The notes beneath the pieces are model-generated. The model was given only the letters and a program-made list of their open reading frames with translations. It had not been told where the DNA came from and did no database searches. The translations under genes were made by a program, and so were the position numbers. Shown here in pieces: positions 2,364-29,476 of a stretch of 64,000 nucleotides of DNA (positions are counted from its first letter, which is position 1; every line of letters starts with the position of its first letter). The stretch comes from Fimbriimonadaceae bacterium. GTDB taxonomy: Bacteria > Armatimonadota > Fimbriimonadia > Fimbriimonadales > Fimbriimonadaceae. The stretch is taken from contig JAHCHO010000006.1 of NCBI GenBank assembly GCA_026129685.1, positions 62,001-126,000 of the forward strand. The letters run 5' to 3'.

Positions 2364-2834
2364 TTAGAAACGGTAGTGGGCGAAGGCCTTGTTGGCCTCC
2401 GCCATGCGGTGCGTGTCCTCGCGCTTTTTGATCGTCGGGCCGGTGCCGTTGAAGGCATCGGAGAATTCGCCGCTGAGTCGCTCCACCATCGACTTGCCCG
2501 AGCGCCGCCGGGCGGCCTCGATCATCCACCGCAAGGCAAGGGTGCGCCGTCGCTCCGGGCGGACCTCCATCGGAACCTGGTAGGTCTGGCCACCGACGCG
2601 GCGGGGCCGCACCTCGACCTGGGGCATGACGTTGTGCATCGCCTTCTCGAAGACGTTGAGCGGTTCGTCGTTAACCTTCTCGGCCGCCCTTTGGAGGGCG
2701 GTGTAGAAGATGTGTTCGGCCTTGGACTTCTTGCCGTCGAGCATCATCCGGTTGATGAACCGCTGGATGAGCTCGCTGCCGTAAACCGGGTCGGGAGCGA
2801 TGACGCGCTTGGGGGCTTGGCCTTTCCGCGGCAT
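2364..2834 (-). CDS. rpsG: 30S ribosomal protein S7
   Basis: S7 is a primary binder of the 3' domain of 16S rRNA and lies next to the E site. The 156-residue length matches the bacterial family, and the start [10 protein letters not shown] and the MMLDGKKS segment are typical. The ATG overlaps the rpsL stop by one base (TAATG), which points to translational coupling. In E. coli S7 is the feedback regulator of this operon; whether that applies here cannot be seen from the sequence. Confidence 0.98.
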
Positions 2835-3238
2835 TAGCGCTTCCCTCCCTTGGCGGGCGCGGCGCCCGGCTTCGGCCGCTTGGTGCCGTACTTGCTTCGG
2901 CCCTGCTTCCGGTTGCCGGTTCCCGATGTCTGCTGGGTTCCGCGCACGATGTGATAGCGCACACCCGGAAGATCCTTAACGCGACCGCCGCGCACGAGCA
3001 CCACCGAGTGCTCCTGCAGGTTGTGCCCCTCGCCCGGAATGTACGCGGTGACCTCGACGCCGTTCACAAGGCGCACACGGGCGACCTTGCGGAGGGCGGA
3101 GTTCGGCTTCTTGGGGGTCTGAGTACGAACGACCGTACACACCCCGCGTTTCTGCGGGTTTCCTTTCAGCGCCGGAGACTTCGACTTGAGTTTCGTCTCC
3201 TTCCGGCCTTTGCGAACAAGCTGGTTGACTGTCGGCAT
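2834..3238 (-). CDS. rpsL: 30S ribosomal protein S12
   Basis: S12 forms part of the decoding centre. The product is 134 residues. The conserved [11 protein letters not shown] segment (about 41-51) and the loop [13 protein letters not shown] (about 84-96) are intact, with unchanged lysines at the classic streptomycin positions, so the sequence gives no sign of streptomycin resistance by S12 mutation. Asp89 in the loop is the residue that RimO methylthiolates in E. coli, and a rimO gene begins at the other end of this window. This is the first gene of the str operon, preceded by a leader of about 220 bases that holds a terminator-like hairpin. Confidence 0.98.
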
Positions 3239-3307
3239 GCGGTGTCTTCGCCTGATTTTCCTGACTTCGGAACCCGGCGGGCCCTCCGGTCCGTCTGTAC
3301 GGACAAC

Positions 3308-3338
3308 AAAAAACCCTTCGGGCTACTCGCACGAAGGG
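3308..3338 (-). terminator. Intrinsic terminator or attenuator in the str operon leader
   Basis: Read on the minus strand, a 7-bp stem (CCCTTCG paired with CGAAGGG, 11-base loop) is followed directly by six T residues. It lies between the predicted str promoter (3467-3496) and the rpsL start (3238). It could therefore stop early transcripts of the str operon, or mop up read-through from the pheS-cupin unit upstream on the same strand. Confidence 0.75.
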
Positions 3339-3466
3339 CGCGCACTCGCGGAATCTTTCATCCTGACAGTTTCGCTAATTCGAGCGAGCCTGTAACCTTG
3401 CGGGGCGGCGCCTCCTCGTAATCGAGATAGTTGGCACGATGGGACGCGCCCATCGGACCACGGGAA

Positions 3467-3496
3467 AGTATGAAGCCCCGGGGGCCCGCTTGTCAA
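3467..3496 (-). promoter_or_regulatory. Sigma70-type promoter of the str operon
   Basis: On the minus strand there is a perfect -35 TTGACA (3491-3496), an 18-base spacer and a -10 CATACT (3467-3472). Transcription would start near 3460 and leave a leader of about 220 bases before rpsL. The leader also holds a GATGGG/CCCATC inverted repeat near 3440-3455 as well as the terminator-like hairpin. Confidence 0.8.
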
Positions 3497-3530
3497 GCCT
3501 CCCTTGAGTCGGAAGGCGAGTGCCGCGAGT

Positions 3531-3893
3531 CTATCCACCGTCTCGATGCACGGTCTCCGGGCTGAACGCCGGACAACAGACGGCCACATAGCGACACGGC
3601 CCGTGCGGGGTCCCGTATCGAACCCACTCGCCCGCCGCGACGGCGACCGCCTGCCCCGCCTCGACCTCGATCGTACGGGTCTTGGTCTCGACCCGCAGGA
3701 CGCCCTCGAGCACGAGGCTGTACTCCGAGAACTCGGGGGTCTGGCCGGGCTCTTCCCAGCCCGCCGGGCTCTCCATCACCGCGAGGCTGATCTCATGGTC
3801 GCCCGTGTTGACGCGCCCGACGAACTCCTCGATGACCTTGGGGAGGCTCCCGGCGGCGCGAACGAGGGTCGGATCGGCGATGAGGCGCGCCAT
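3531..3893 (-). CDS. Small cupin-domain protein
   Basis: A 120-residue single-domain cupin. The central part reads like a beta-barrel with the EYSLVLEGVLRVE strand pair, the VEAGQAVAVAAGEW turn and a C-terminal RYVAVCCPAFSP strand, as in sensor or isomerase-type cupins. Metal-ligand histidines of the classical cupin motif are mostly missing, so an enzymatic role is uncertain. Its ATG overlaps the pheS stop by one base (TGATG), so it is translated with pheS from one mRNA. No specific substrate can be assigned. Confidence 0.8.
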   Translation of the reverse strand: MARLIADPTLVRAAGSLPKVIEEFVGRVNTGDHEISLAVMESPAGWEEPGQTPEFSEYSLVLEGVLRVETKTRTIEVEAGQAVAVAAGEWVRYGTPHGPCRYVAVCCPAFSPETVHRDGG

Positions 3894-4891
3894 CAGGCCG
3901 GGAACTGCTCCAAGAATCGCAGGTCGTTCTCGAGGAAGTGGCGCAGGTCGTCCACCCCGTAGCGAAGCATCGGCAGCCTTTCGACGCCGAGCCCGAACGC
4001 GAAGCCGGAGTAGCGCTCACTGTCGATGCCGTAGTGCTCGAGGATGTTCGGGTGGACCAATCCCGCGCCCCCGAGTTCCAGCCATCTCCCGCCCGCGAAC
4101 TTCGGCGTGCTGATCGCGTAGTCCACGCCCGGTTCGACGAACGGAAAGAAGTCGGGCCGAAACCGAATCTTGACCTCCGGGCCGAGCATCGCCCGGGCAA
4201 AGGTGCCCAAGGTCCATTTGAGGTGAGCCATGCTCACACCCTCGTCCACCATAAACACGTCCACTTGGTGGAAGGTGTGGCCGTGAGTCCGGTCCACCGC
4301 TTCGTTCCGAAACGTGCGCCCGACGGTGAACGCACGGATCGGTGGCTTTCGGTTCTCGAACACCCGCCCCTGCAGCGCCGTGCACTGCGTCCGGAGCAAC
4401 AGGTCGCCCTCGACGTAGAAGGTGTCCTGCTCGTCCATCGCCGGATGATCCTCCGGGTAGTTCAGGGCGTCGAAGTTGTAGCGAAACTGCTCCAGTTCGG
4501 GCGACTCGAGGTACTCGAAGCCCAGCCCGACGAACACCTCTTTGATGCGGTCGGTCGTCTGCTGGAGGATGTGGGGGTTCCCGACGCGCCGACGGCGTCC
4601 GGGAAGGCTGACGTCGAGCCGCTCGGCGGCGAACTGGGCGACGCGCTCCCCCGCCCGCAACTCGCTCGCGCGGGCTTCCATCTCCGCCTGGACCCGGGCG
4701 GCCGCCTCGTTCACGCGTTGCCCGAACGCGGGACGCTCTTCCGCGGGCATCGCGCCGACCGACTTGAGAAGGCCGCGCAGCGCGCCGCTCTTCCCGAGGT
4801 ACTTGCGTTCGACCTCGCGCAGATCCGCGGTGGTCGTCGCCCCCGCGATCTCGGCCCGCGCCTCGGACACCAATTCATCGATGGCTCGCAT
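3893..4891 (-). CDS. pheS: Phenylalanine-tRNA ligase alpha subunit
   Basis: The alpha subunit carries the catalytic core of the alpha2-beta2 enzyme that charges tRNA-Phe. The 332-residue product starts at MRAIDELVSEAR; the open frame extends further upstream but without family similarity. The N-terminal coiled-coil arm spans about residues 5-95. Class II motif 2 is seen as FRNEAVDRTHGHTFHQ and motif 3 as FGLGVERLPMLRYG near the C-terminus. pheS is normally followed by pheT, but here it is followed by a cupin gene, and pheT lies 2.4 kb away on the other strand. Confidence 0.97.
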   Translation of the reverse strand: MRAIDELVSEARAEIAGATTTADLREVERKYLGKSGALRGLLKSVGAMPAEERPAFGQRVNEAAARVQAEMEARASELRAGERVAQFAAERLDVSLPGRRRRVGNPHILQQTTDRIKEVFVGLGFEYLESPELEQFRYNFDALNYPEDHPAMDEQDTFYVEGDLLLRTQCTALQGRVFENRKPPIRAFTVGRTFRNEAVDRTHGHTFHQVDVFMVDEGVSMAHLKWTLGTFARAMLGPEVKIRFRPDFFPFVEPGVDYAISTPKFAGGRWLELGGAGLVHPNILEHYGIDSERYSGFAFGLGVERLPMLRYGVDDLRHFLENDLRFLEQFPA

Positions 4892-5022
4892 GGACGGGAC
4901 TAGATTGGCGCAAGGGTGGAGCCGAAAGCAACCGAGTCCGAATGTCGGACCCCGTGAGAGACGTGGCTCTCGCTCAACCGGGGCTACAAGGCGCGAAAGG
5001 AGGACTTTTTCGCGGTTCCCCC

Positions 5023-5051
5023 TTGACACCGACCAAAGTCCCGTTTACAAT
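5023..5051 (+). promoter_or_regulatory. Near-consensus sigma70 promoter of the PEP-CTERM gene
   Basis: TTGACA (5023-5028), a 17-base spacer and TACAAT (5046-5051): eleven of twelve consensus bases with ideal spacing. The expected start is near 5058, giving a leader of about 50 bases that includes a GGAG just upstream of the ATG at 5107. This is one of the strongest-looking promoters in the window and implies high expression. Confidence 0.88.
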
Positions 5052-5106
5052 GGTGTCAACGGAAAAAGCGCCTCTGCGTGCTGACCGTCGGACTGGAGTA
5101 GGACAA

Positions 5107-5796
5107 ATGAAGAAGCTTCTCATCGCGGCGTTCGCCGCTTCCTTGTCGTCGGGCGTGTTCGCCCAGGCTCTCAACGAGGGATTCGACGATATCACGACCC
5201 TTACCGGTAGCGGTTGGGCGTTCCAGAACCTGAGCGTCGCGGGCGGCACCGCCACGTACTTCCAGGGCAACAGCACCGTCTTCGCCGCCAACTCCGGCGC
5301 GGCGACCTCCTACCTCGGGGTCAACTTCAACAGCACGACCGGCGCGAACACCATCAGCAACTGGGCGTTCATGCCGACCCGGGTCTGGAGCAACGGAGAC
5401 CAGATCTCCTTCTTCACCCGGACCGTGACGGGCAACATCTTCCCAGATCGCCTTCAGCTTCGCCTGAGCCTCAACGGCAGCAGCGTGAACGCGGGCGCGA
5501 CGCCGACCAGCGTGGGCGACTTCACGACGCTCTTGCTCGACATCAACCCGACCTACCAGACGGGCGCCGCGAACTACCCGGAGACTTGGACCCAGTTCTC
5601 CGCCACGATCTCCGGCCTCGGCGGACCGACGAGCGGTCGCGCCGCCTTCCGGTACTTCGTCGAGGACGGTGGCCCCGCCGGCAACAACTCGAACTACATT
5701 GGCATCGACGATGCCGCCGTCGTTCCCGAGCCCGCGAGCATGGCCGTTCTGGGCCTTGGCCTTCTGCCCCTCCTGAAGCGCCGCCGCAAGGCCTAA
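5107..5796 (+). CDS. PEP-CTERM sorting domain protein
   Basis: A 229-residue exported protein. The start at 5107 gives a signal peptide (MKKLLIAAFAASLSSGVFAQ); the frame is open upstream but the promoter and a GGAG place the start here. The mature part is rich in Ser, Thr, Asn and Gly and looks like a beta-rich domain. The C-terminus has the tripartite PEP-CTERM signal: VPEPAS, a hydrophobic stretch, then RRRKA. Such proteins are processed by an exosortase; none is seen in the window. Its molecular role is unknown. A strong terminator follows. Confidence 0.9.
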   Translation: MKKLLIAAFAASLSSGVFAQALNEGFDDITTLTGSGWAFQNLSVAGGTATYFQGNSTVFAANSGAATSYLGVNFNSTTGANTISNWAFMPTRVWSNGDQISFFTRTVTGNIFPDRLQLRLSLNGSSVNAGATPTSVGDFTTLLLDINPTYQTGAANYPETWTQFSATISGLGGPTSGRAAFRYFVEDGGPAGNNSNYIGIDDAAVVPEPASMAVLGLGLLPLLKRRRKA

Positions 5797-7311: not shown

Positions 7312-9366
7312 ATGAAGTTCCCGTGTTCGATGCTCCGCGACTACGTCGAAACCTCCCTCGACGCCCACCAGATCGGCGACCTGCTGACGATGGCGGGGTT
7401 CGAGTTGGAAGGCGCCGAGCCGTTGGGCGATGACGTCGTGCTCGACGTCAAGGTGATGTCCAATCGGGGCGACGGGCTGTCGGTGTTCGGGCTCGCCCGG
7501 GAGGTGCTCGCCAAGGATCGGCAGAGCCGCCCGACCCCTCTCTACGAGCGGGCCTCCACCCGGTTTTCGCTCCCCGAGTCCGCCGGAACCGTGGCCGACC
7601 GAACCTCGGTCGCCATCGAAACCCCGGCCTGCCGACGCTATGCCTGCCGAATCTTCGACGAGCCGCCCTTGGAAGGAACCCCGGCCCTGATCCGCGAGCG
7701 GCTGGAAGCGTCCGGGATGCGTTCGATCAACCTCGTCGTCGACCTCACCAACTACGTGATGCTCGAACTCGGCCAGCCGCTCCACGCCTTCGACATGGAC
7801 ACCTTGGGCGGCGGCCGTATCGTCGTCCGCCAGGCTCGCGACAACGAGCGGCTCACGACCCTCGATGGGAAAGTGCACGCGCTCGCGCCGGAAATGATGA
7901 TGATCTGCGACGCCGATCGGCCCGTCGCGGTCGCGGGGGTCATGGGCGGCGCGGAAACCGAGGTCTCGGCTTCCACCAAGACGGTGCTCCTGGAGTCGGC
8001 CAGCTTCGTCAACTTGTCCGTCCGCAAGACACGGAAACGGCTCGGTCTGAACACGGAGGCGTCGTACCGTTTCGAGCGAAGCGTCGACCCCGACGGCGTC
8101 GTCGCGGCGCTGAACCGCTTCGCCGAACTGCTGGCGGAGGTGGACGGAGGAGCCTCGCGCGTCCCCGGCGTCTTGGACGTCTACCCCGATCCCCCCAAGC
8201 CCGTCGCGATCCCGCTCCGTCACGCGCGCACCGAGCGACTCCTGGGGATGGCCGTCACGCCGGTGCAGATGGCGCACTACCTCGAGCGGCTCGGGTGCCG
8301 GGTGGAGAGTCCGCTCGACGACGCCGACTTCTCGATCACGCCTCCCTCGTGGCGCCCCGACCTGGTTCGCGAAGACGACCTCATCGAGGAGATCGGGAGA
8401 GTCCACGGGTTCGAGACGATCCCTGAGACCCCGATCCACGGTTCGGCCACCCCCGGCGGCGTGTTCGGCGTCTACCGGTTCATCGACCAGGTCCGCGAGG
8501 CGATGCTTCGGCTGGGCTACACCCAGGTCATCAGCCACACCCTTCGCGACGAGCATCCCCTCGACTTCGGCGGGTTGTTCAAGGCGCGGGTCAAGAACCC
8601 GGTCTCGCCGGAGACCGCGATGCTTCGCAACTCGCTCCTTCCCTGCCTCGCCGACGCCGCTCTGCGCAACGGGGGGCGCGACCTTCACCTTTTCGAGATC
8701 GGCAAGGTGTTCACCCGGGGCGAGTTCCAGTTCGACGAAAGCCCGGAACTCGCGATCTTGAGCACCGGACGCCTCGATCAAGTCCATTGGCGCGACGGCG
8801 CTTCGGCGGAAGCCGACTTCTACGAACTGAAGGGCGTCGTCGAGCAGATGGGTGAGATCGTCCGCACTGAACTGCACGTCGAGCCCGTCGTGACCCCGGA
8901 CCCACGCTTCCACCCGACCCGACAGGCGGCTCTGCTCACGACCGACGACGTGCTGGTGGGCGGGTTCGGGGTGATCCACCCGGACGTGGCGGAGGCGGTC
9001 GGCCTCCCCACGAACACCCTGATGGCGGAGATGGATCTGCTGGCGTTCTACCGAGGCGACCACGACCACCTTCACCTGCGCTCGATCAGCCGAAACCCGG
9101 CCGTTCGCCGGGATATCGCCTTCCAGATCGCCAAGGACGTGCCTTGGTCGGCGGTCGAGACGACGATTCGCGAGGCGGCGGGCGAGGTGCTGGAGAAGCA
9201 GTGGCTTTTCGACGTCTACGAGGGAGCCGGTTTGCCGGAGGGCACCCACAGCCTCGCGGTGGCGATGCAATTGCGTAAGCCGTCGAACTTCACGGACGAG
9301 GAAGCGAACCAGGTGCGGGACGCGGTCGTGGCGGCGCTCGCCGGGTTGGGGGCGAAACCGCGCTAG
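7312..9366 (+). CDS. pheT: Phenylalanine-tRNA ligase beta subunit lacking the N-terminal tRNA-binding domain
   Basis: The beta subunit supports the catalytic alpha subunit, edits mischarged Tyr and binds tRNA. The 684-residue product starts MKFPCSMLRDYV, as in the family. After only about 40 residues it runs directly into the B1 motif DVVLDVKVMSNRGD (41-54), which in typical 790-810 residue PheT proteins comes about 110 residues later. The EMAP-II-like OB fold (domain B2) is therefore missing. The B3/B4 editing domain, the B5 domain (TPPSWRPDLVREDDLIEEIG) and the C-terminal FDX-ACB domain are present. The start is set by the conserved MKF and a GGAAG upstream. It is split from pheS. Confidence 0.96.
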   Translation: MKFPCSMLRDYVETSLDAHQIGDLLTMAGFELEGAEPLGDDVVLDVKVMSNRGDGLSVFGLAREVLAKDRQSRPTPLYERASTRFSLPESAGTVADRTSVAIETPACRRYACRIFDEPPLEGTPALIRERLEASGMRSINLVVDLTNYVMLELGQPLHAFDMDTLGGGRIVVRQARDNERLTTLDGKVHALAPEMMMICDADRPVAVAGVMGGAETEVSASTKTVLLESASFVNLSVRKTRKRLGLNTEASYRFERSVDPDGVVAALNRFAELLAEVDGGASRVPGVLDVYPDPPKPVAIPLRHARTERLLGMAVTPVQMAHYLERLGCRVESPLDDADFSITPPSWRPDLVREDDLIEEIGRVHGFETIPETPIHGSATPGGVFGVYRFIDQVREAMLRLGYTQVISHTLRDEHPLDFGGLFKARVKNPVSPETAMLRNSLLPCLADAALRNGGRDLHLFEIGKVFTRGEFQFDESPELAILSTGRLDQVHWRDGASAEADFYELKGVVEQMGEIVRTELHVEPVVTPDPRFHPTRQAALLTTDDVLVGGFGVIHPDVAEAVGLPTNTLMAEMDLLAFYRGDHDHLHLRSISRNPAVRRDIAFQIAKDVPWSAVETTIREAAGEVLEKQWLFDVYEGAGLPEGTHSLAVAMQLRKPSNFTDEEANQVRDAVVAALAGLGAKPR

Positions 9367-10720
9367 CGACCGCCTCGAACGTCCCCCAGCCGAGCAGAAC
9401 GACGAACAAGGCTCGCATCGCCATCGGCCAGTAGTGGTAATGGTCGAACGGCTTGAGCCAGGCCATCGGCAGGTAGGCCAGTACGGACATCGCCAGTGAG
9501 CCAAAGCCCAGCGCCCACCGCCGTCCCACGACCCAATATCCCGCCAGATTGGCGACGATTCCCAGAAGGGCGCCCATCGCGACACCGCCGAAAAGCAGCG
9601 CCTCCCAGCCGAGGTCCAGGCTGCCCAAGAGGATCGGAACGTACGCCCCCTCCGGGAACGCGTAGTCCAGAATCGCCAGTCCGACGCTCCCACTCGCCCG
9701 GAACTGCTGGCGCTGGTAGCCGGAAACCTCCGTCGGCACCAGTTGGTGGCGTAGCGCGACGTAGCCGAAGAGAATCCCCCAGAAGGCGAATTGCCAGAGC
9801 CACTGCGGGCGTGCGCCCCGACCACGGAAAGCCACCGCGACCGCGACGAGGCACGCGGGAACCATCACGGCCTGCTCGTACGCCCCGAGCGCGAGGCAAA
9901 GGCACAGGCAGGCGAGGACGGCCCACGGCCAAGCCGGACCCGACGCCTTCCCAAGCGTCGCGCTTTTGGTGTTCGGGACGTCGGTGGCGCTCAGGCCTTC
10001 GAAGGAAAGCGGCTTTGTGCGCGCCGTCCGACGGTGCTCGGACCTCAGACGCTCGAACCGGGCATAGGCACCAAGCGACCCGAGCGCGAACACCGTCATC
10101 GTGGTCGCGGTGCGACCGGGCAGCCAACCCACGTTTCGCATCCACAGCGGCGCGACGCCGTCGAGTTCGGACCCGAGGTACCGCAACGCGAGCCAAGCCA
10201 GGAGCGGGCCGCCCAAGGCCGCGTACCAACGCGGTCTCACCGCTCGGCCGGAGCTTGCCAACGTGTGCCAATAGCGAAGGGCGCCCGCGACGAGAACGAA
10301 CCAACCCAGAAGACCGACGTAGCTCGAGAGCGAGTAACCGCCGTCCAGCGTCCACAGGGCGAACAGCGCCCCCCCGGCGGCCGACACGGCGGGCGAATCG
10401 GTGAATTCGCGCAGAAACCAGAAGAGAAGGAGGATGCCGAGGATGCAGAGGAGGGCGTTGGTGCGCCCGTAGCCGGCTGCGTTCCATCCGTACAGGGCGT
10501 GGTCGGCCTCGAACAACATCGTCGAAATCGGCCGATAGAAGTGGTTCTCGAGCGGCCAGTCGCCCCGAAACCAACTCAAGGGGTCGGCCCGCTCCTCCAA
10601 CTTGGTGAGCAGCACCCGGGTATCGGTGTCGGAGAGCATCGCGGGCGACTCACTACGGCGGAGCCAGATCGGCAGACATGCCAGCAGAACCACCAGGAAC
10701 GCCGGCCACCACCGTTTCAC
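9290..10720 (-). CDS. Polytopic membrane protein, GT-C glycosyltransferase-like
   Basis: A 476-residue protein with roughly ten hydrophobic segments. An early extracytoplasmic loop (HFYRPISTMLFEADHALYGWNA) resembles the loop of PMT/ArnT-like GT-C proteins, where membrane-lipid-linked sugars are transferred. The aspartate-containing motif before it (DTDTR) fits that family loosely. The start is GTG at 10720, six bases downstream of a TAGAAT box, so the mRNA is probably leaderless. Its 3' end overlaps the convergent pheT end by 77 bases. Donor and acceptor are unknown. Confidence 0.65.
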   Translation of the reverse strand: MKRWWPAFLVVLLACLPIWLRRSESPAMLSDTDTRVLLTKLEERADPLSWFRGDWPLENHFYRPISTMLFEADHALYGWNAAGYGRTNALLCILGILLLFWFLREFTDSPAVSAAGGALFALWTLDGGYSLSSYVGLLGWFVLVAGALRYWHTLASSGRAVRPRWYAALGGPLLAWLALRYLGSELDGVAPLWMRNVGWLPGRTATTMTVFALGSLGAYARFERLRSEHRRTARTKPLSFEGLSATDVPNTKSATLGKASGPAWPWAVLACLCLCLALGAYEQAVMVPACLVAVAVAFRGRGARPQWLWQFAFWGILFGYVALRHQLVPTEVSGYQRQQFRASGSVGLAILDYAFPEGAYVPILLGSLDLGWEALLFGGVAMGALLGIVANLAGYWVVGRRWALGFGSLAMSVLAYLPMAWLKPFDHYHYWPMAMRALFVVLLGWGTFEAVASAVSPPTRRAPPRPRPAPGSLPRP

Positions 10721-21391: not shown

Positions 21392-22119
21392 TCCTGAGCC
21401 TCCTCCATACCGGCGACTTTCACGGTCGCCTCGACGCCGCGCGCTTCGCGCGGCTCGATCCGTGGCGCGCCCAATGCGACCTGTACTTCGACTCCGGTGA
21501 TCTGATCGCCACGGGCAACCTCGCCGTGCCCCTGCGTCCCGATCCGGCCTGGCCCCTCCTCGCCCGTCTGCGCTGCGACGCGAGCGTGCCCGGCAACCGC
21601 GACGTGCACGTCCTCCGCGGCGTTCTCGATGCGAAGATGGCCGGGTCGTCCCACCCCATCCTCTGCGCGAACCTGCGCGACTCCGACCCCGACCGCCCCG
21701 CCCCCCTTCCCGGTAGCCGGATCATCGAAGCCGGCGGCGGACGGGTCGGCGTGTTCGGCGTGATGGTGCCGATGGTGACGGAGCGGATGGCGACGAAGGT
21801 GGCGAGCGCTTACCTGTGGGATTCGCCGGTGGAAACGGCGCGCCGCCTGGTCGAAGAACTCCGACCGAACGTGGACTGCCTGATCGCCCTCACCCACATC
21901 GGCGTCAAGCAGGACATCGCATTGGCGGAGACCGTCCCCGGCCTCGACCTGATCCTGGGAGGGCACTCGCACACCGTGCTCGATTCGCCCGTCCGCGTCG
22001 GCGACGCGTGGATCTGTCACACCGGCTCCCACGGTCGCTTCGCCGGCCGGTACCGTTGGCAGTCCGGACGAGGGGTCGAAGGGCGACTGCTCCCGCTCGA
22101 CCGACCCGATGGGCTCTAG
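21388..22119 (+). CDS. Calcineurin-like metallophosphoesterase, 5'-nucleotidase-like
   Basis: A 243-residue cytoplasmic phosphoesterase. Metal-binding motifs appear in order: HTGDFHGRL (8-16), DSGD, PGNRD, a histidine in LTHIGVKQD and GGHSH near 190. This matches the catalytic domain of UshA-like 5'-nucleotidases without their C-terminal substrate domain and without a signal peptide, so it may act inside the cell. The start is GTG overlapping the secG stop. The end overlaps the convergent alpha-mannosidase by four bases. Confidence 0.82.
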   Translation: MILSLLHTGDFHGRLDAARFARLDPWRAQCDLYFDSGDLIATGNLAVPLRPDPAWPLLARLRCDASVPGNRDVHVLRGVLDAKMAGSSHPILCANLRDSDPDRPAPLPGSRIIEAGGGRVGVFGVMVPMVTERMATKVASAYLWDSPVETARRLVEELRPNVDCLIALTHIGVKQDIALAETVPGLDLILGGHSHTVLDSPVRVGDAWICHTGSHGRFAGRYRWQSGRGVEGRLLPLDRPDGL

Positions 22120-25100
22120 ACCGCGATCCGGACGGTCAGAATCTCGAACGGGCGGTACGCGAACATCGCCAGTCCGTCCACCGTCTCCAACTCCATGATC
22201 GGGTTCTCCTCCAGGTCGCAGAGCCAAGCCGAGCGGATCGGCCGCGCCGAAGCCAGTTCGCCGTTGCCCCGCGAGTTGTGGCACTCGTACAACCGGACGA
22301 TCAAGTCGTCGCCCGCCTCCGCCTTCTTGACCGCCTCGATCACCAGATTCGGGTTGTCGCAGGAGACGAACGGGGGCAACGCGGCGGCAAGTCCCTTCTG
22401 CGGTGTCAGCCGGACCGAACGAAGGGGCGCGTTCAGGGCGTAGGCCGCTTGCACCACGTTCGAGTACGGGAGGGTGCCGACGTGGGGCAAGAGCACGTAG
22501 GTGAATCGGTGTCGGCCCATATCGCATTCAGGGTCCGGGGCCTTTGGCGCGCGCAGCAGCGACAACCGAATCGTGTTGCCCTGGGCGTCATGGCCGTACT
22601 TTCCGTCGTTGAGCAGCGCCACGCCTTGGTCGCCCTCGCTGACGTCCACCCACTTCTGGGCACAGACCTCGAACTTGGCCAAGTCCCAACTCGTGTTCGT
22701 GTGCGTCGGCCGCTCCACGTGGCCAAACTGAATCTCGTAGGTGGCGCGACTCGCGTTGACGTTCAGCGGGAACGCGACCTTGAGCAACTTGTCCTCCTCG
22801 TGCCAGTCGATCTCGGTGTCGAAGCGCACCCCGGGGGTTGGGCCGAGGCTGATCCGCTGACGGATTCGGCTGTTGCCGAAACGCCGCACGACCTCTGCCG
22901 CCACCCGTACCGGGCCCTTTTCGACGACTTCAAAGCTCTCGGCTTTGAGCAGTTCGCGGCACGTCTCGTAGGCGAACACGTCGATGTCCCAAGCGGACCA
23001 GAACAACGGCTTGTCGTCGAACAACTGGAAGACGTTGGCGGGACGATCGGGCTGGACGTACTCGCGTCCGTCGCCCAGGCTCTGGACGCTCGTCAGGTTG
23101 CCGTTGGCGTCGAACCGAATCGAGAGCTCGTCGTTCTCGAGCCGGCGGCCGCTCGCCCGAAGGCGCGCCTTGACGTTGGGCGGCGCGCTCCCCAGGTCGC
23201 CCACCTGGACGGCGCCGAGCACGCTCGAAGGCGTGGCGAACACCAACTTGCTCTCGCCGAACTCCTCGACCAACTGGACCGGAAGCGCCTCGTCGCCGAC
23301 GCGCAGGGACGACGGCGTTTCGCCGCCCTCCCAGTCGATCGCGCCTTGGGTCACGATTCCCGCGTTCTGGAACAGGGCGACGGGCCGCTCGTAACCGGCG
23401 GTATCGAGTCGGGCGGCGATGGCCCGCAGGCTGTCGCCCACCACCCGCTCCCCGATCTCCACGACCGTTCGGTAGTCGGCGGCGCTGTCCACATACACCT
23501 CGTTCACCGACGAGCCGGGAATGATGTCGTGGAACTGGTTCAGCAGGACGAGCTTCCAGGCCGCCTCGAGATCCTCCGCCGGGTAGGGCCGATCGGCGAA
23601 CGCCGCCAACCACTCGGCGTCTCGCAACAGGAACTCGGTCACCCGGTTCATCTTCTTGTTCGCCGCCTGACTGGTGTAGGTGCCACGGTGAAGCTCGAGG
23701 TAAAGCTCGCCCACCCAGGTGGCAAGGTCCCGGCTTTTGGCCTTCGCCTCTTCGAAGAACGAAAGGGCGGTCTTGCTCCCCTCCACGTCCGGCAGGTTTG
23801 AGACCTTGCGCGCCCGACGCAGGAACTCGAGGTGTTGCTCGGTTGGGCCGCCGCCTCCGTCGCCGAACCCAAAGACGTAGAGCGATTGGCCCGAGCGGGC
23901 GTGATCCTTGAAGTTGGACACCGATCGGAGGAGTTCGGCCGGTTCGCCGTTCCCGCAGTAGGTGTCGGCGGGCGGGAAGTGCGACCAGACTTTGGTGCCG
24001 TCGATCCCCTGCCACCAGAACGTATGGTGCGGGAACTTGTTTAACTGGTTCCAACTGATCTTCTGGGTGAGGAAGTACCGGATGCCGAACTTCCCGAGAA
24101 TCTGCGGCAGGGCGGCGGAGTAACCGAACACGTCCGGCAACCACATGTCCTCCGTCTGGTAGCCGAGTTTGTCCCGGAAGTACTTCCGACCGTAGAGGAA
24201 CTGGCGAACGAGGGACTCCGCCCCCGTCAGGTTGCAGTCCGCCTCGATCCACATCGAACCGACCGGTTCCCATTGACCGGCGGCGATCGCCGCCTTCACG
24301 CGCTCGAACAGGACCGGATACTCCTTCTCGAGCCACTCGTACTGCGCGGCCTGGGAGTGCACGAACACGTACTCCGGATACTGGGAGATCAGATCGAGCT
24401 GGGTGGCCGTGGTGTGCGCCATCTTCAGCTTGGTCACCCGGATCGGCCAGAGCCACGCCGTGTCGAGGTGCGCGTGCCCCACCGGCGTCAGCGTGTGGCG
24501 CACGTCGGCGGTCAGTTGACCAAGCGCGTCGCGCACGATCTTGCGGCCCGTCGCGGCGGCCGCGATCCCATCGATCGCCCATACGTTGCACACCTCGTTC
24601 AGGCCGCGAAGGACGATGTGGAATTCGGGGGTGTCCTCCTTGAGCGCCCCCAGCAGACTCTGGGCAAAAGCCACGTCGTAATAGAGCGCCTTGACTCCCT
24701 CGCGGATCTCGACCAGCTCCGCGCCCTCGACGGTTGCGACGAGCGGCCGACGCGGCAGTTCACGCAGGTGAACTCGGTGTTCCGGGTTCCCGGCGTAGGC
24801 CTGGACGTACCGCTCCAGCGCCTCGCCGCCCGCCGCTTCGCGCAAGATCGGCCACACGTCGTGGGGGCCGTCGATGCCGCGCACGGGCGAGTTGTCGGCC
24901 CAGGCGGTCGCCTCCGCGCCGACCCGGACGTGGAGGCCGACGGCGCGTCCGGCCCAATCCTCGGGCACCCGGCCCTTCACCCGGAACCACGCTTCACGGT
25001 ACGCCGGTCCCCACTCGAATCCGGGAGCGACGGCCGTGTACGCGCCCTTCCGAGCATGGGCCTCGTCCGGGTGCGCTTCGCCATCGTAGGCGAGATCCAG

Positions 25101-25190
25101 GGAGACGCGCTCGCCGTACACGCTCGGCTTCAGTTGATGCTCGAGAAACTGGGCAATTCGACGACGAGTCAGGTCCGGATGCTTGAGCAT
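22116..25190 (-). CDS. Alpha-mannosidase, glycoside hydrolase family 38
   Basis: Hydrolyses alpha-linked mannose from glycans or glycoproteins, retaining mechanism with zinc. The 1024-residue product has an N-terminal beta domain (1-230), the GH38 catalytic barrel with VGHAHLDTAWLWP (zinc ligands His239 or His241 and Asp243), the nucleophile Asp353 in WLPDVFGYS, a helical middle domain and C-terminal beta sheets. There is no signal peptide, so it acts in the cytoplasm on imported oligosaccharides. The start at MLKHPDL has an AAGGA about 15 bases upstream; a TAGACT box lies further up. A sugar ABC permease lies 3 kb upstream on the same strand, but not in one operon. Confidence 0.95.
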   Translation of the reverse strand: MLKHPDLTRRRIAQFLEHQLKPSVYGERVSLDLAYDGEAHPDEAHARKGAYTAVAPGFEWGPAYREAWFRVKGRVPEDWAGRAVGLHVRVGAEATAWADNSPVRGIDGPHDVWPILREAAGGEALERYVQAYAGNPEHRVHLRELPRRPLVATVEGAELVEIREGVKALYYDVAFAQSLLGALKEDTPEFHIVLRGLNEVCNVWAIDGIAAAATGRKIVRDALGQLTADVRHTLTPVGHAHLDTAWLWPIRVTKLKMAHTTATQLDLISQYPEYVFVHSQAAQYEWLEKEYPVLFERVKAAIAAGQWEPVGSMWIEADCNLTGAESLVRQFLYGRKYFRDKLGYQTEDMWLPDVFGYSAALPQILGKFGIRYFLTQKISWNQLNKFPHHTFWWQGIDGTKVWSHFPPADTYCGNGEPAELLRSVSNFKDHARSGQSLYVFGFGDGGGGPTEQHLEFLRRARKVSNLPDVEGSKTALSFFEEAKAKSRDLATWVGELYLELHRGTYTSQAANKKMNRVTEFLLRDAEWLAAFADRPYPAEDLEAAWKLVLLNQFHDIIPGSSVNEVYVDSAADYRTVVEIGERVVGDSLRAIAARLDTAGYERPVALFQNAGIVTQGAIDWEGGETPSSLRVGDEALPVQLVEEFGESKLVFATPSSVLGAVQVGDLGSAPPNVKARLRASGRRLENDELSIRFDANGNLTSVQSLGDGREYVQPDRPANVFQLFDDKPLFWSAWDIDVFAYETCRELLKAESFEVVEKGPVRVAAEVVRRFGNSRIRQRISLGPTPGVRFDTEIDWHEEDKLLKVAFPLNVNASRATYEIQFGHVERPTHTNTSWDLAKFEVCAQKWVDVSEGDQGVALLNDGKYGHDAQGNTIRLSLLRAPKAPDPECDMGRHRFTYVLLPHVGTLPYSNVVQAAYALNAPLRSVRLTPQKGLAAALPPFVSCDNPNLVIEAVKKAEAGDDLIVRLYECHNSRGNGELASARPIRSAWLCDLEENPIMELETVDGLAMFAYRPFEILTVRIAV

Positions 25191-25263
25191 GGGGTGGGGT
25201 CCTTTGGGCGAACGCAACGCAGTCTACTTGGCGAGCCAAACCAAAGAGCGGGCACCGATAGGG

Positions 25264-27943: not shown

Positions 27944-29476
27944 TCACTTGTCGTCGCCCGGAAGCACGATGCCCCGCATGATAACCCGCTGGGCGAGGAG
28001 GAACACGACGAGGGTCGGCAACGCCGCCAAGGCCACCGCCGCCATCATGACCGCCTTCGGGGCGGTTGCCTGGAGTTGGTAGATCCAGACCATCAGCGTC
28101 CACATCCTCTGGTCCTGAACGACGAGGAAGGCGTAGAGAAACGCTCCGTACGCCCCCATAAACGCCAGGAGCGCGAGGTATCCGAGCACGGGCTTGCTGA
28201 GGGGAAGGGCGATCCGCAGCATCATCGTCGTCTCCTTCGCCCCGTCGATCTGCGCGCTCTCGTAGAGCTCGCTCGGAAGGGAATCGAAGAAGCCTTTGAG
28301 GAGGAAGATCATGTAGCCGCTCGCCATCCCGGGAAGCACCAGGGCGGCGAACGTGTTCAGGAGGCCAAGGTCCTTCAAAAGCAGGAATGAAGGAATCATC
28401 GCGACCTCGGCGGGAAACGCCATCGTCGCGAGGAGGAACATCAGAATCTTCCAAGACGCCCGGACCGGGTACCGGGACAAGGCGTACGCGGCGACCGGGT
28501 TGACCAGAAGCTGCGTCCCGATGGCCAGCAGGCAGAAGATCGCGGTGTTCAGAAGGGCGCGCCCGTTCAGAAGGATGTAGTCGAGGACGAAGAGGTAGTT
28601 GCGCGTCGAGAACTCGCGCCGCAAGCCCGCTTCGTTCCGCGCGACGACGGCCCGCTCGAACGCCTCGATCGGCATCGGGCCGGACGAGACCCTTGCCCAT
28701 CGGCGTTCCACGTCGTTCTCGACGAAGCGGCGATTGGGCCAATCGGCCTCGAACTCGTCCACGTCGTTCGAAGGGGCTAGGCGTATCTGCTCGAAGGCGG
28801 TCGCCTCGCCCCGAACGCCGATGGGAACGGCGGCGAGTTGGTTCTGGTACTTGCTGCGCAACCACTCCTGGTAGAGACGCTCCTTTCGAACCGGGATGCG
28901 AAACTCGGCGGGCAACGTTCGCTTGAACTCCTGCCACTCGTCCCACTTCCGCCCGGGAAGCGGCCGCCAGACGCGACGCTCGTACTGCTCGTTCGGCGGG
29001 GAGACGGTCTGGAAGGCGAGGTTCTCCTCGATGTAGGCGTCGTTCAGGTCCTTGATCGTGGCGAAGCGACGCTGGACCCACGCCTGGTACCGGGTCTTGA
29101 GGCGGCTCGTGACCTGGTTCGGGGCGACGACGTACCCCGCGACCCAGGCCTCGTTGGGCAGGTCCATCAGGAACCGCTCGTAGGCTTTCAACGTGGCGGC
29201 GTCCGCTTCCCTTCCGATGCGGGTGCTGGCGATCGCGCTCGCGTTGCCGGCGTACTTGTCCTCGACCGCCTTCTTGTACAGCTCCTCCGGGTCGCTCCAG
29301 AAACTCGGGACGAGACGGTTGTCGTTCTGGTCGGTCGGTCCTTTGAAGCCGGTCGAGATCATCAGCAGGAACGGGTAGACGGTGGTGACGGCGCCGACGA
29401 TGAGGAGCGCGTACAGCGCCGTCATCGCCAGTCGCGCCCGAAAGCGCCGTCGCCCAACTCGGCCGACCAAGCTCAT
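27944..29476 (-). CDS. MalG-like sugar ABC transporter permease with large extracytoplasmic insertion
   Basis: One membrane subunit of a carbohydrate importer. At 510 residues it is about 220 longer than typical MalG proteins. After the first membrane helix (about 17-40) comes a hydrophilic block (about 45-260), and then the usual five-helix BPD core with the EAA motif ELYESAQIDGAKE. The block contains two related stretches with a Trp-x-x-(Arg/Lys)-x-(Tyr/Phe) core, the first being WVQRRFATIKDLNDAYIE, which resemble a motif of GH42-type beta-galactosidases. No second permease, ATPase or binding protein gene is beside it. A CATAAT box lies eight bases before the ATG. Confidence 0.88.
   Translation of the reverse strand: MSLVGRVGRRRFRARLAMTALYALLIVGAVTTVYPFLLMISTGFKGPTDQNDNRLVPSFWSDPEELYKKAVEDKYAGNASAIASTRIGREADAATLKAYERFLMDLPNEAWVAGYVVAPNQVTSRLKTRYQAWVQRRFATIKDLNDAYIEENLAFQTVSPPNEQYERRVWRPLPGRKWDEWQEFKRTLPAEFRIPVRKERLYQEWLRSKYQNQLAAVPIGVRGEATAFEQIRLAPSNDVDEFEADWPNRRFVENDVERRWARVSSGPMPIEAFERAVVARNEAGLRREFSTRNYLFVLDYILLNGRALLNTAIFCLLAIGTQLLVNPVAAYALSRYPVRASWKILMFLLATMAFPAEVAMIPSFLLLKDLGLLNTFAALVLPGMASGYMIFLLKGFFDSLPSELYESAQIDGAKETTMMLRIALPLSKPVLGYLALLAFMGAYGAFLYAFLVVQDQRMWTLMVWIYQLQATAPKAVMMAAVALAALPTLVVFLLAQRVIMRGIVLPGDDK

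Follow-up and report, generated by a model that had tools for sequence, protein, structure and literature searches.

One of the closest described counterparts of the transporter considered here is MalFGK2-MalE of E. coli and Salmonella, a type I ABC importer of the CUT1 family. According to Daus et al. (2007), as cited in PMC3150292, MalE of E. coli interacts with MalF P2 and MalG P1. In OpuA and GlnPQ, the binding domain is tethered to the transmembrane subunit (PMC8025302, PMC11065425). We analyzed a 64,000-nt stretch of DNA from a Fimbriimonadaceae bacterium, hereafter the window, which carries a permease gene that shares features with both kinds of system.

The gene at 27944..29476 (-) encodes a 510-aa MalG-type (CUT1-like) permease, as judged by its translation, its PF00528 match, and its fold match to MalG. 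The C-terminal 200 residues constitute a standard MalG/UgpE-like permease core: PF00528 (BPD_transp_1) matches residues 334-501 with an E of 8.9e-16, and the NCBIfam scores are 96 bits for UgpE and 68 bits for MalG, both far under the equivalog cut-offs. The AlgM2, MalG, and SugB structures align with the protein from about residue 305 onward only, and E. coli MalG (3puv_G) superposes on the whole AlphaFold2 (AF2) model (Z 19.0, 261 aligned, rmsd 3.6). Within this transmembrane core (residues 306-503; 27968..28561, (-)), delimited by sequence, Pfam, and structure alignments, an EAA-type coupling motif, ESAQIDGAKETTMMLRIALPLSKP, can be read at about residues 406-429. The Pfam match, fold match, and motif bear out the intact MalG core reported in a preliminary description of the window.

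Transmembrane helix 1 spans about residues 12-44 (29345..29443, (-)) in the AF2 model and 14-44 by hydrophobicity, and hydrophobicity places the next membrane segment at about residues 301-331. Residues 46-281 or so therefore form a soluble block between helices 1 and 2, as had been proposed with limits of ~45-260; our limits come from hydrophobicity and alignments. The N-terminus is basic (GRVGRRRFRAR), which by the positive-inside rule argues that the block is extracytoplasmic. It adds ~235-240 residues at the P1 position, where an ordinary MalG has a short loop. Four further long MalG ORFs of the same genome (L033, L036, L037, and L038) seem to owe their length to an in-frame extension upstream of a normal-size MalG, and we rejected them as long loops.

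The P1 loop (residues 46-281; 28634..29341, (-)), as delineated using homologues, a repeat HMM, and AF2 (pLDDT about 85-97), consists of degenerate units of ~70 residues in tandem, here three and a partial one. The repeat HMM was seeded with two units of distant forms and then iterated, after which it found 107 copies in 43 loops compared to 0 in five-fold shuffled loops. As iteration could inflate this count, we note that the first round, before iteration, already gave 62 compared to 0. Putative unit 1 (residues 63-124; 29105..29290, (-)) was missed by the HMM and is assigned from the AF2 helix pattern only. Unit 2 (residues 125-197; 28886..29104, (-)) contains WVQRRFATIKDLNDAY and is detected at 127-178 (E 6e-17), in addition to being marked by AF2 helices and conservation. 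Unit 3 (residues 198-248; 28733..28885, (-)) contains YQEWLRSKYQ and is detected at 199-250 (E 3e-16), again with AF2 helices. The two stretches singled out in the preliminary description thus both sit in detected repeat copies. Partial unit 4 (residues 249-281; 28634..28732, (-)), with AF2 helices at 249-253, 256-261, and 270-280, runs into the junction helix before transmembrane helix 2.

The AF2 model of the whole chain, built with 43 sequences, has a mean pLDDT of 84 overall and about 85-97 in the loop. The loop is nearly all helix, with two short strands only, and a pattern of helices of 12-13, ~8, and ~11 residues, closed by a short strand, repeats at intervals of about 60-75 residues. 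AF2 modeling of the 669-residue homologue at L070, of the Planctomycetota/Verrucomicrobiota/Lentisphaerota type, gave four units plus part of a fifth. When whole chains were used in fold searches, every match was to the permease transmembrane core, and none was informative on the loop.

A search of genome contigs yielded 32 loci with homologues of the loop-bearing MalG. Those from Fimbriimonadia-type Armatimonadota are 53-77% identical to it, and those from Verrucomicrobiota, Planctomycetota, Lentisphaerota, Sumerlaeota, and other Armatimonadota are 34-57% identical in the best segment. The soluble block is kept in 43 aligned homologues, and K69, Y75, G114, P161, P189, and P269 are near-invariant. 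Loops in Fimbriimonadia have 239-292 residues, and those of the other groups 302-385. In a tree of the core, a fully supported branch (100/100) separates all 43 loop-bearing MalGs from 13 paralogues of the genome under study. Up to about ten loop-type MalG genes occur in a single Phycisphaeraceae genome (G074).

We also observed a second insertion of ~60-70 residues in L070:8001-10007 and other loop-bearing MalGs of Planctomycetota, Verrucomicrobiota, and Lentisphaerota (e.g., L062, L069, and L072-L076). It has two hydrophobic stretches, lies just N-terminal of the LLNTFAALVLPG motif, and is absent from Fimbriimonadia and from L063, L065, and L066. It may be an additional membrane hairpin, in a region of low AF2 confidence. 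In a Planctomycetota MAG (L064:209-3022 (+)), the open frame continues without a stop for ~500 more residues past the loop-MalG core, which on this 3-kb contig reflects either a fusion or a missed stop.

The preliminary description had found no partner genes nearby, and we likewise detected no second permease, candidate MalK, or SBP_bac_8 match inside the 64,000-nt window. The genome as a whole encodes about 14 MalG-like and about 14 MalF-like proteins. Thirteen MalG/MalF pairs are adjacent, which leaves the loop-bearing MalG and one MalF, located at C15:152 kb. This MalF belongs to an 803-aa fusion of a solute-binding protein (SBP) to MalF (G000:C15:149919-152327, about 58 kb from the loop-bearing MalG), in which PF01547 (E 7e-34) and PF00528 occur in one ORF. 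Its layout is a signal-peptide-like hydrophobic N-terminus, an SBP domain, an extra transmembrane helix, and MalF, with the hydrophobic segment at 455-480 between the SBP and permease domains.

At 8 of the 10 distant loci with enough flank, the loop-bearing MalG adjoins such a fusion (L062, L063, L065, L069, L070, L073, L075, and L076), of 847-996 residues when each frame is read from its first start codon. At L066 a 981-residue fusion is found about 3.5 kb upstream, and at L067 there is none within the flank examined. The SBP and MalF parts of the distant fusions match those of the 803-aa protein with E of about 1e-20 to 1e-80. Among the 50 near-complete genomes of 61 related ones, 30 have both genes, 20 have neither, and none is discordant (Fisher 2e-14, a value that ignores shared descent); the discordant genomes among the 61 are G001 (89% complete, 690 contigs), G035 (68%), and G054 (73%). 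Near relatives with both genes on one contig have them non-adjacent, e.g., 8 kb apart in G008 and about 58 kb here, suggesting that the pair was separated in that lineage. These genomic data strongly support the 803-aa fusion as the predicted partner of the loop-bearing MalG.

The earlier argument that the isolation of this permease favors a built-in recognition domain fails because the SBP-MalF fusion is a conserved partner, and we rejected that reading. A partner gene elsewhere with an ordinary binding-protein domain, which had been named in advance as telling against it, is what we found; disorder of the insert, named likewise, is not seen at a loop pLDDT of about 85-97.

The genome encodes four SBP-MalF fusions (C15:150k, C2:96k, C14:185k, and C14:11k). 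Two of the others pair with MalGs of ordinary length (275 aa for C14:11k and 294 aa for C14:185k), so a tethered SBP does not require such a loop. On G000:C2, another long MalG, a 607-aa ORF (L032:6227-8047(-)), adjoins a further fusion (7960-10491(-)); its N-terminal extension is hydrophobic, and its P1 loop, roughly 140 residues long, is unrelated. The SBP part of the fusions at L062, L069, L070, L075, and L076 bears a cysteine-containing insertion (e.g., RECPYKEKC), absent from the Fimbriimonadia fusion, that may be a metal site.

One ATPase gene in the genome, at C12:91383, exceeds the UgpC cut-off (438.5 vs. 432 bits), and the other 44 ATPase matches are far under it. This UgpC/MalK-type ATPase probably powers the pair of loop-bearing MalG and fusion, and we infer that it is common to all ~14 MalF/MalG pairs. 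Distant copies neighbor a tagaturonate epimerase/UxaE (L070), a GH3 (L073), and a beta-helix/GH141-type protein (L075), which point to polysaccharide-derived oligosaccharides in general and to no particular sugar. The gene neighborhoods of relatives contain no constant neighbor and indicate no substrate. In the window, the loop-bearing MalG has a GH38 alpha-mannosidase gene in its vicinity (22116-25217 (-)), and in L062 such a gene adjoins the SBP-MalF fusion (2636-5608 (-)). GH38 is absent from all other flanks checked, and its proximity in these two cases may be coincidence.

With an array at the MalG P1 position and a binding domain tethered to the partner, a docking arch is the simplest reading. 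The repeat-built P1 would receive the tethered binding domain and position it over the translocation pore, as MalG P1 and MalF P2 together do for free MalE in E. coli. By analogy with that system, we infer that the P1 loop may contact and dock the tethered domain. On balance, we think it somewhat probable that the 510-aa protein serves as the MalG subunit in an oligosaccharide importer of the CUT1 type, with the binding-protein-MalF fusion as the other half and the loop as a docking arch. Of the two roles first offered for the insert, substrate capture and partner docking, docking is the best remaining reading, and capture is disfavored by a helical loop with no SBP domain. Unit 2 is the most conserved in Fimbriimonadia loops (mean majority fraction 0.64, compared to 0.58, 0.48, and 0.44) and is where an interface should be sought.

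Helical repeats are frequent protein-binding scaffolds, and the loop could bind some envelope protein other than the binding domain, such as a periplasmic glycosidase, a regulator, or a cell-wall component. The loop sequence differs between clades, and GH genes occur near some copies (including GH38 in the window and at L062), in line with this reading. However, neighbor genes vary across relatives and the sole constant companion found is the SBP-MalF fusion, and we consider such a partner unlikely.

The preliminary description had also noted a GH42-like motif in the insert, and we ran a profile of 30 loop units against all PDB sequences. The top match was the beta-amylase 3voc (E 2.9e-7), followed by the GH42 beta-galactosidases 1kwg (E 1.4e-6), 6lvw (5.4e-6), and others, and lower down by more chains of beta-galactosidase, beta-amylase, agarase, and exo-glucosaminidase. 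Glycosidase or glycosyltransferase names are borne by 30 of the top 31 chains, and the remaining one (6ptm) is labeled uncharacterized. A reversed-unit profile, built from 20 units and not 30, gave no match in the PDB at E up to 10. Together with the 107 versus 0 repeat matches, these results uphold the motif. Single loops match GH42 weakly in 19 of 43 members (best E 0.0026), as do single units (best E 0.00096), the first unit of P0001 covering 151-192 of 376 profile positions. All nine non-MalG ORFs with the motif that we checked in five genomes carry PF02449, one of them being a GH42 beta-galactosidase of the genome under study.

The matching stretch in 1kwg is residues 157-208, after strand 4, and the common motif is a helix-turn-helix of ~40-50 residues (F..yL..KYG.I..lN.a.GT.y.sf.ev..P). 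In the unit profile alignment, the MalG units lack five residues of 1kwg, AFWSQ, which include Trp182, reportedly a galactose contact in the A4 beta-galactosidase structure. The loop motif thus marks a helical element and not a catalytic or proven sugar-binding site. GH164 enzymes have domains that resemble GH42; in them, subdomain H, a helical segment between strand 4 and the helix that follows, touches a neighboring chain and is suggested to help stabilize the trimer (PMC7105311). The likeness of the loop units to GH14/GH42 reflects either common descent or convergence.

We rejected the insert as a glycosidase, as the AF2 model is nearly all-helical with no (beta/alpha)8 barrel and only the helical stretch is common, and as a binding-protein domain, given the same helical model and no SBP family in the Pfam matches of the 43 homologues. 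The structure prediction called for in the preliminary description returned an ordered helical fold, neither disorder nor a glycosidase barrel or binding-protein fold. A built-in carbohydrate-binding module, in which the GH42-like helical units hold an oligo- or polysaccharide near the pore, would fit the GH14/GH42 profile matches, the invariant aromatic and polar positions of unit 2 in Fimbriimonadia (N145, Y148, E150, W170, and W181), and the UxaE, GH3, and beta-helix/GH141-type genes adjoining paralogous systems. We rank it below another envelope partner and hold it to be improbable, as the likeness lies in the helical stretch following strand 4 and not in the catalytic pocket, AFWSQ is missing, and a cognate binding protein is already present in the fusion. 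For the docking arch, we tentatively hypothesize, with rather more doubt than confidence, that a lineage of sugar importers took up a helical element related to subdomain H of GH42/GH14 and multiplied it into a MalG P1 solenoid that serves as a dock for the tethered binding domain.

Mean identity within Fimbriimonadia is 44% for the loop compared to 78% for the core, and to distant forms it is 17% compared to 58%. The loop thus evolves faster than the core, which is compatible with a spacer as much as with a dock. That it is a passive spacer or shield grown by repeat duplication, without a specific partner, agrees with this lower conservation and with loop lengths that differ by units (239 to 385 residues), but it is the least probable of the alternatives given a well-ordered array retained in several phyla with near-invariant K69, Y75, G114, P161, P189, and P269.

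A literature search that covered few subscription papers found no description of the loop, nor of the fusion in these phyla. If true, the docking arch would define a type I importer architecture not found in the literature searched, in a family across several phyla (Armatimonadota, Planctomycetota, Verrucomicrobiota, Lentisphaerota, and others) that combines a tethered binding protein with a repeat-built arm on the other permease. The family makes the positioning of a tethered binding domain by type I importers testable, and "orphan" MalG and MalF genes of Fimbriimonadia thereby gain partners.

A helical element of glycosidases is thus seen here in a protein of an entirely different kind. GH42 beta-galactosidases and GH14 beta-amylases resemble the loop units in the helical stretch (subdomain H) after strand 4, whereas the MalG loops have no barrel and carry the stretch in tandem, in two to four detected copies. 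Like OpuA and GlnPQ, the present importer has a tethered binding domain; unlike these osmolyte and amino-acid importers, it has a heterodimeric MalF/MalG and a repeat-built loop on the non-fused subunit. With MalFGK2-MalE it shares the MalG core fold, a MalF partner, a binding domain of the SBP_bac_1 type, and an extracytoplasmic loop where P1 of MalG lies. In contrast to that system, P1 here is an array of helical repeats about 235 residues long, the malG and malF genes are not linked, and the binding protein is fused to MalF via an extra transmembrane helix. The big docking loop of the E. coli importer is MalF P2, which belongs to the other subunit than the loop-bearing MalG described here.
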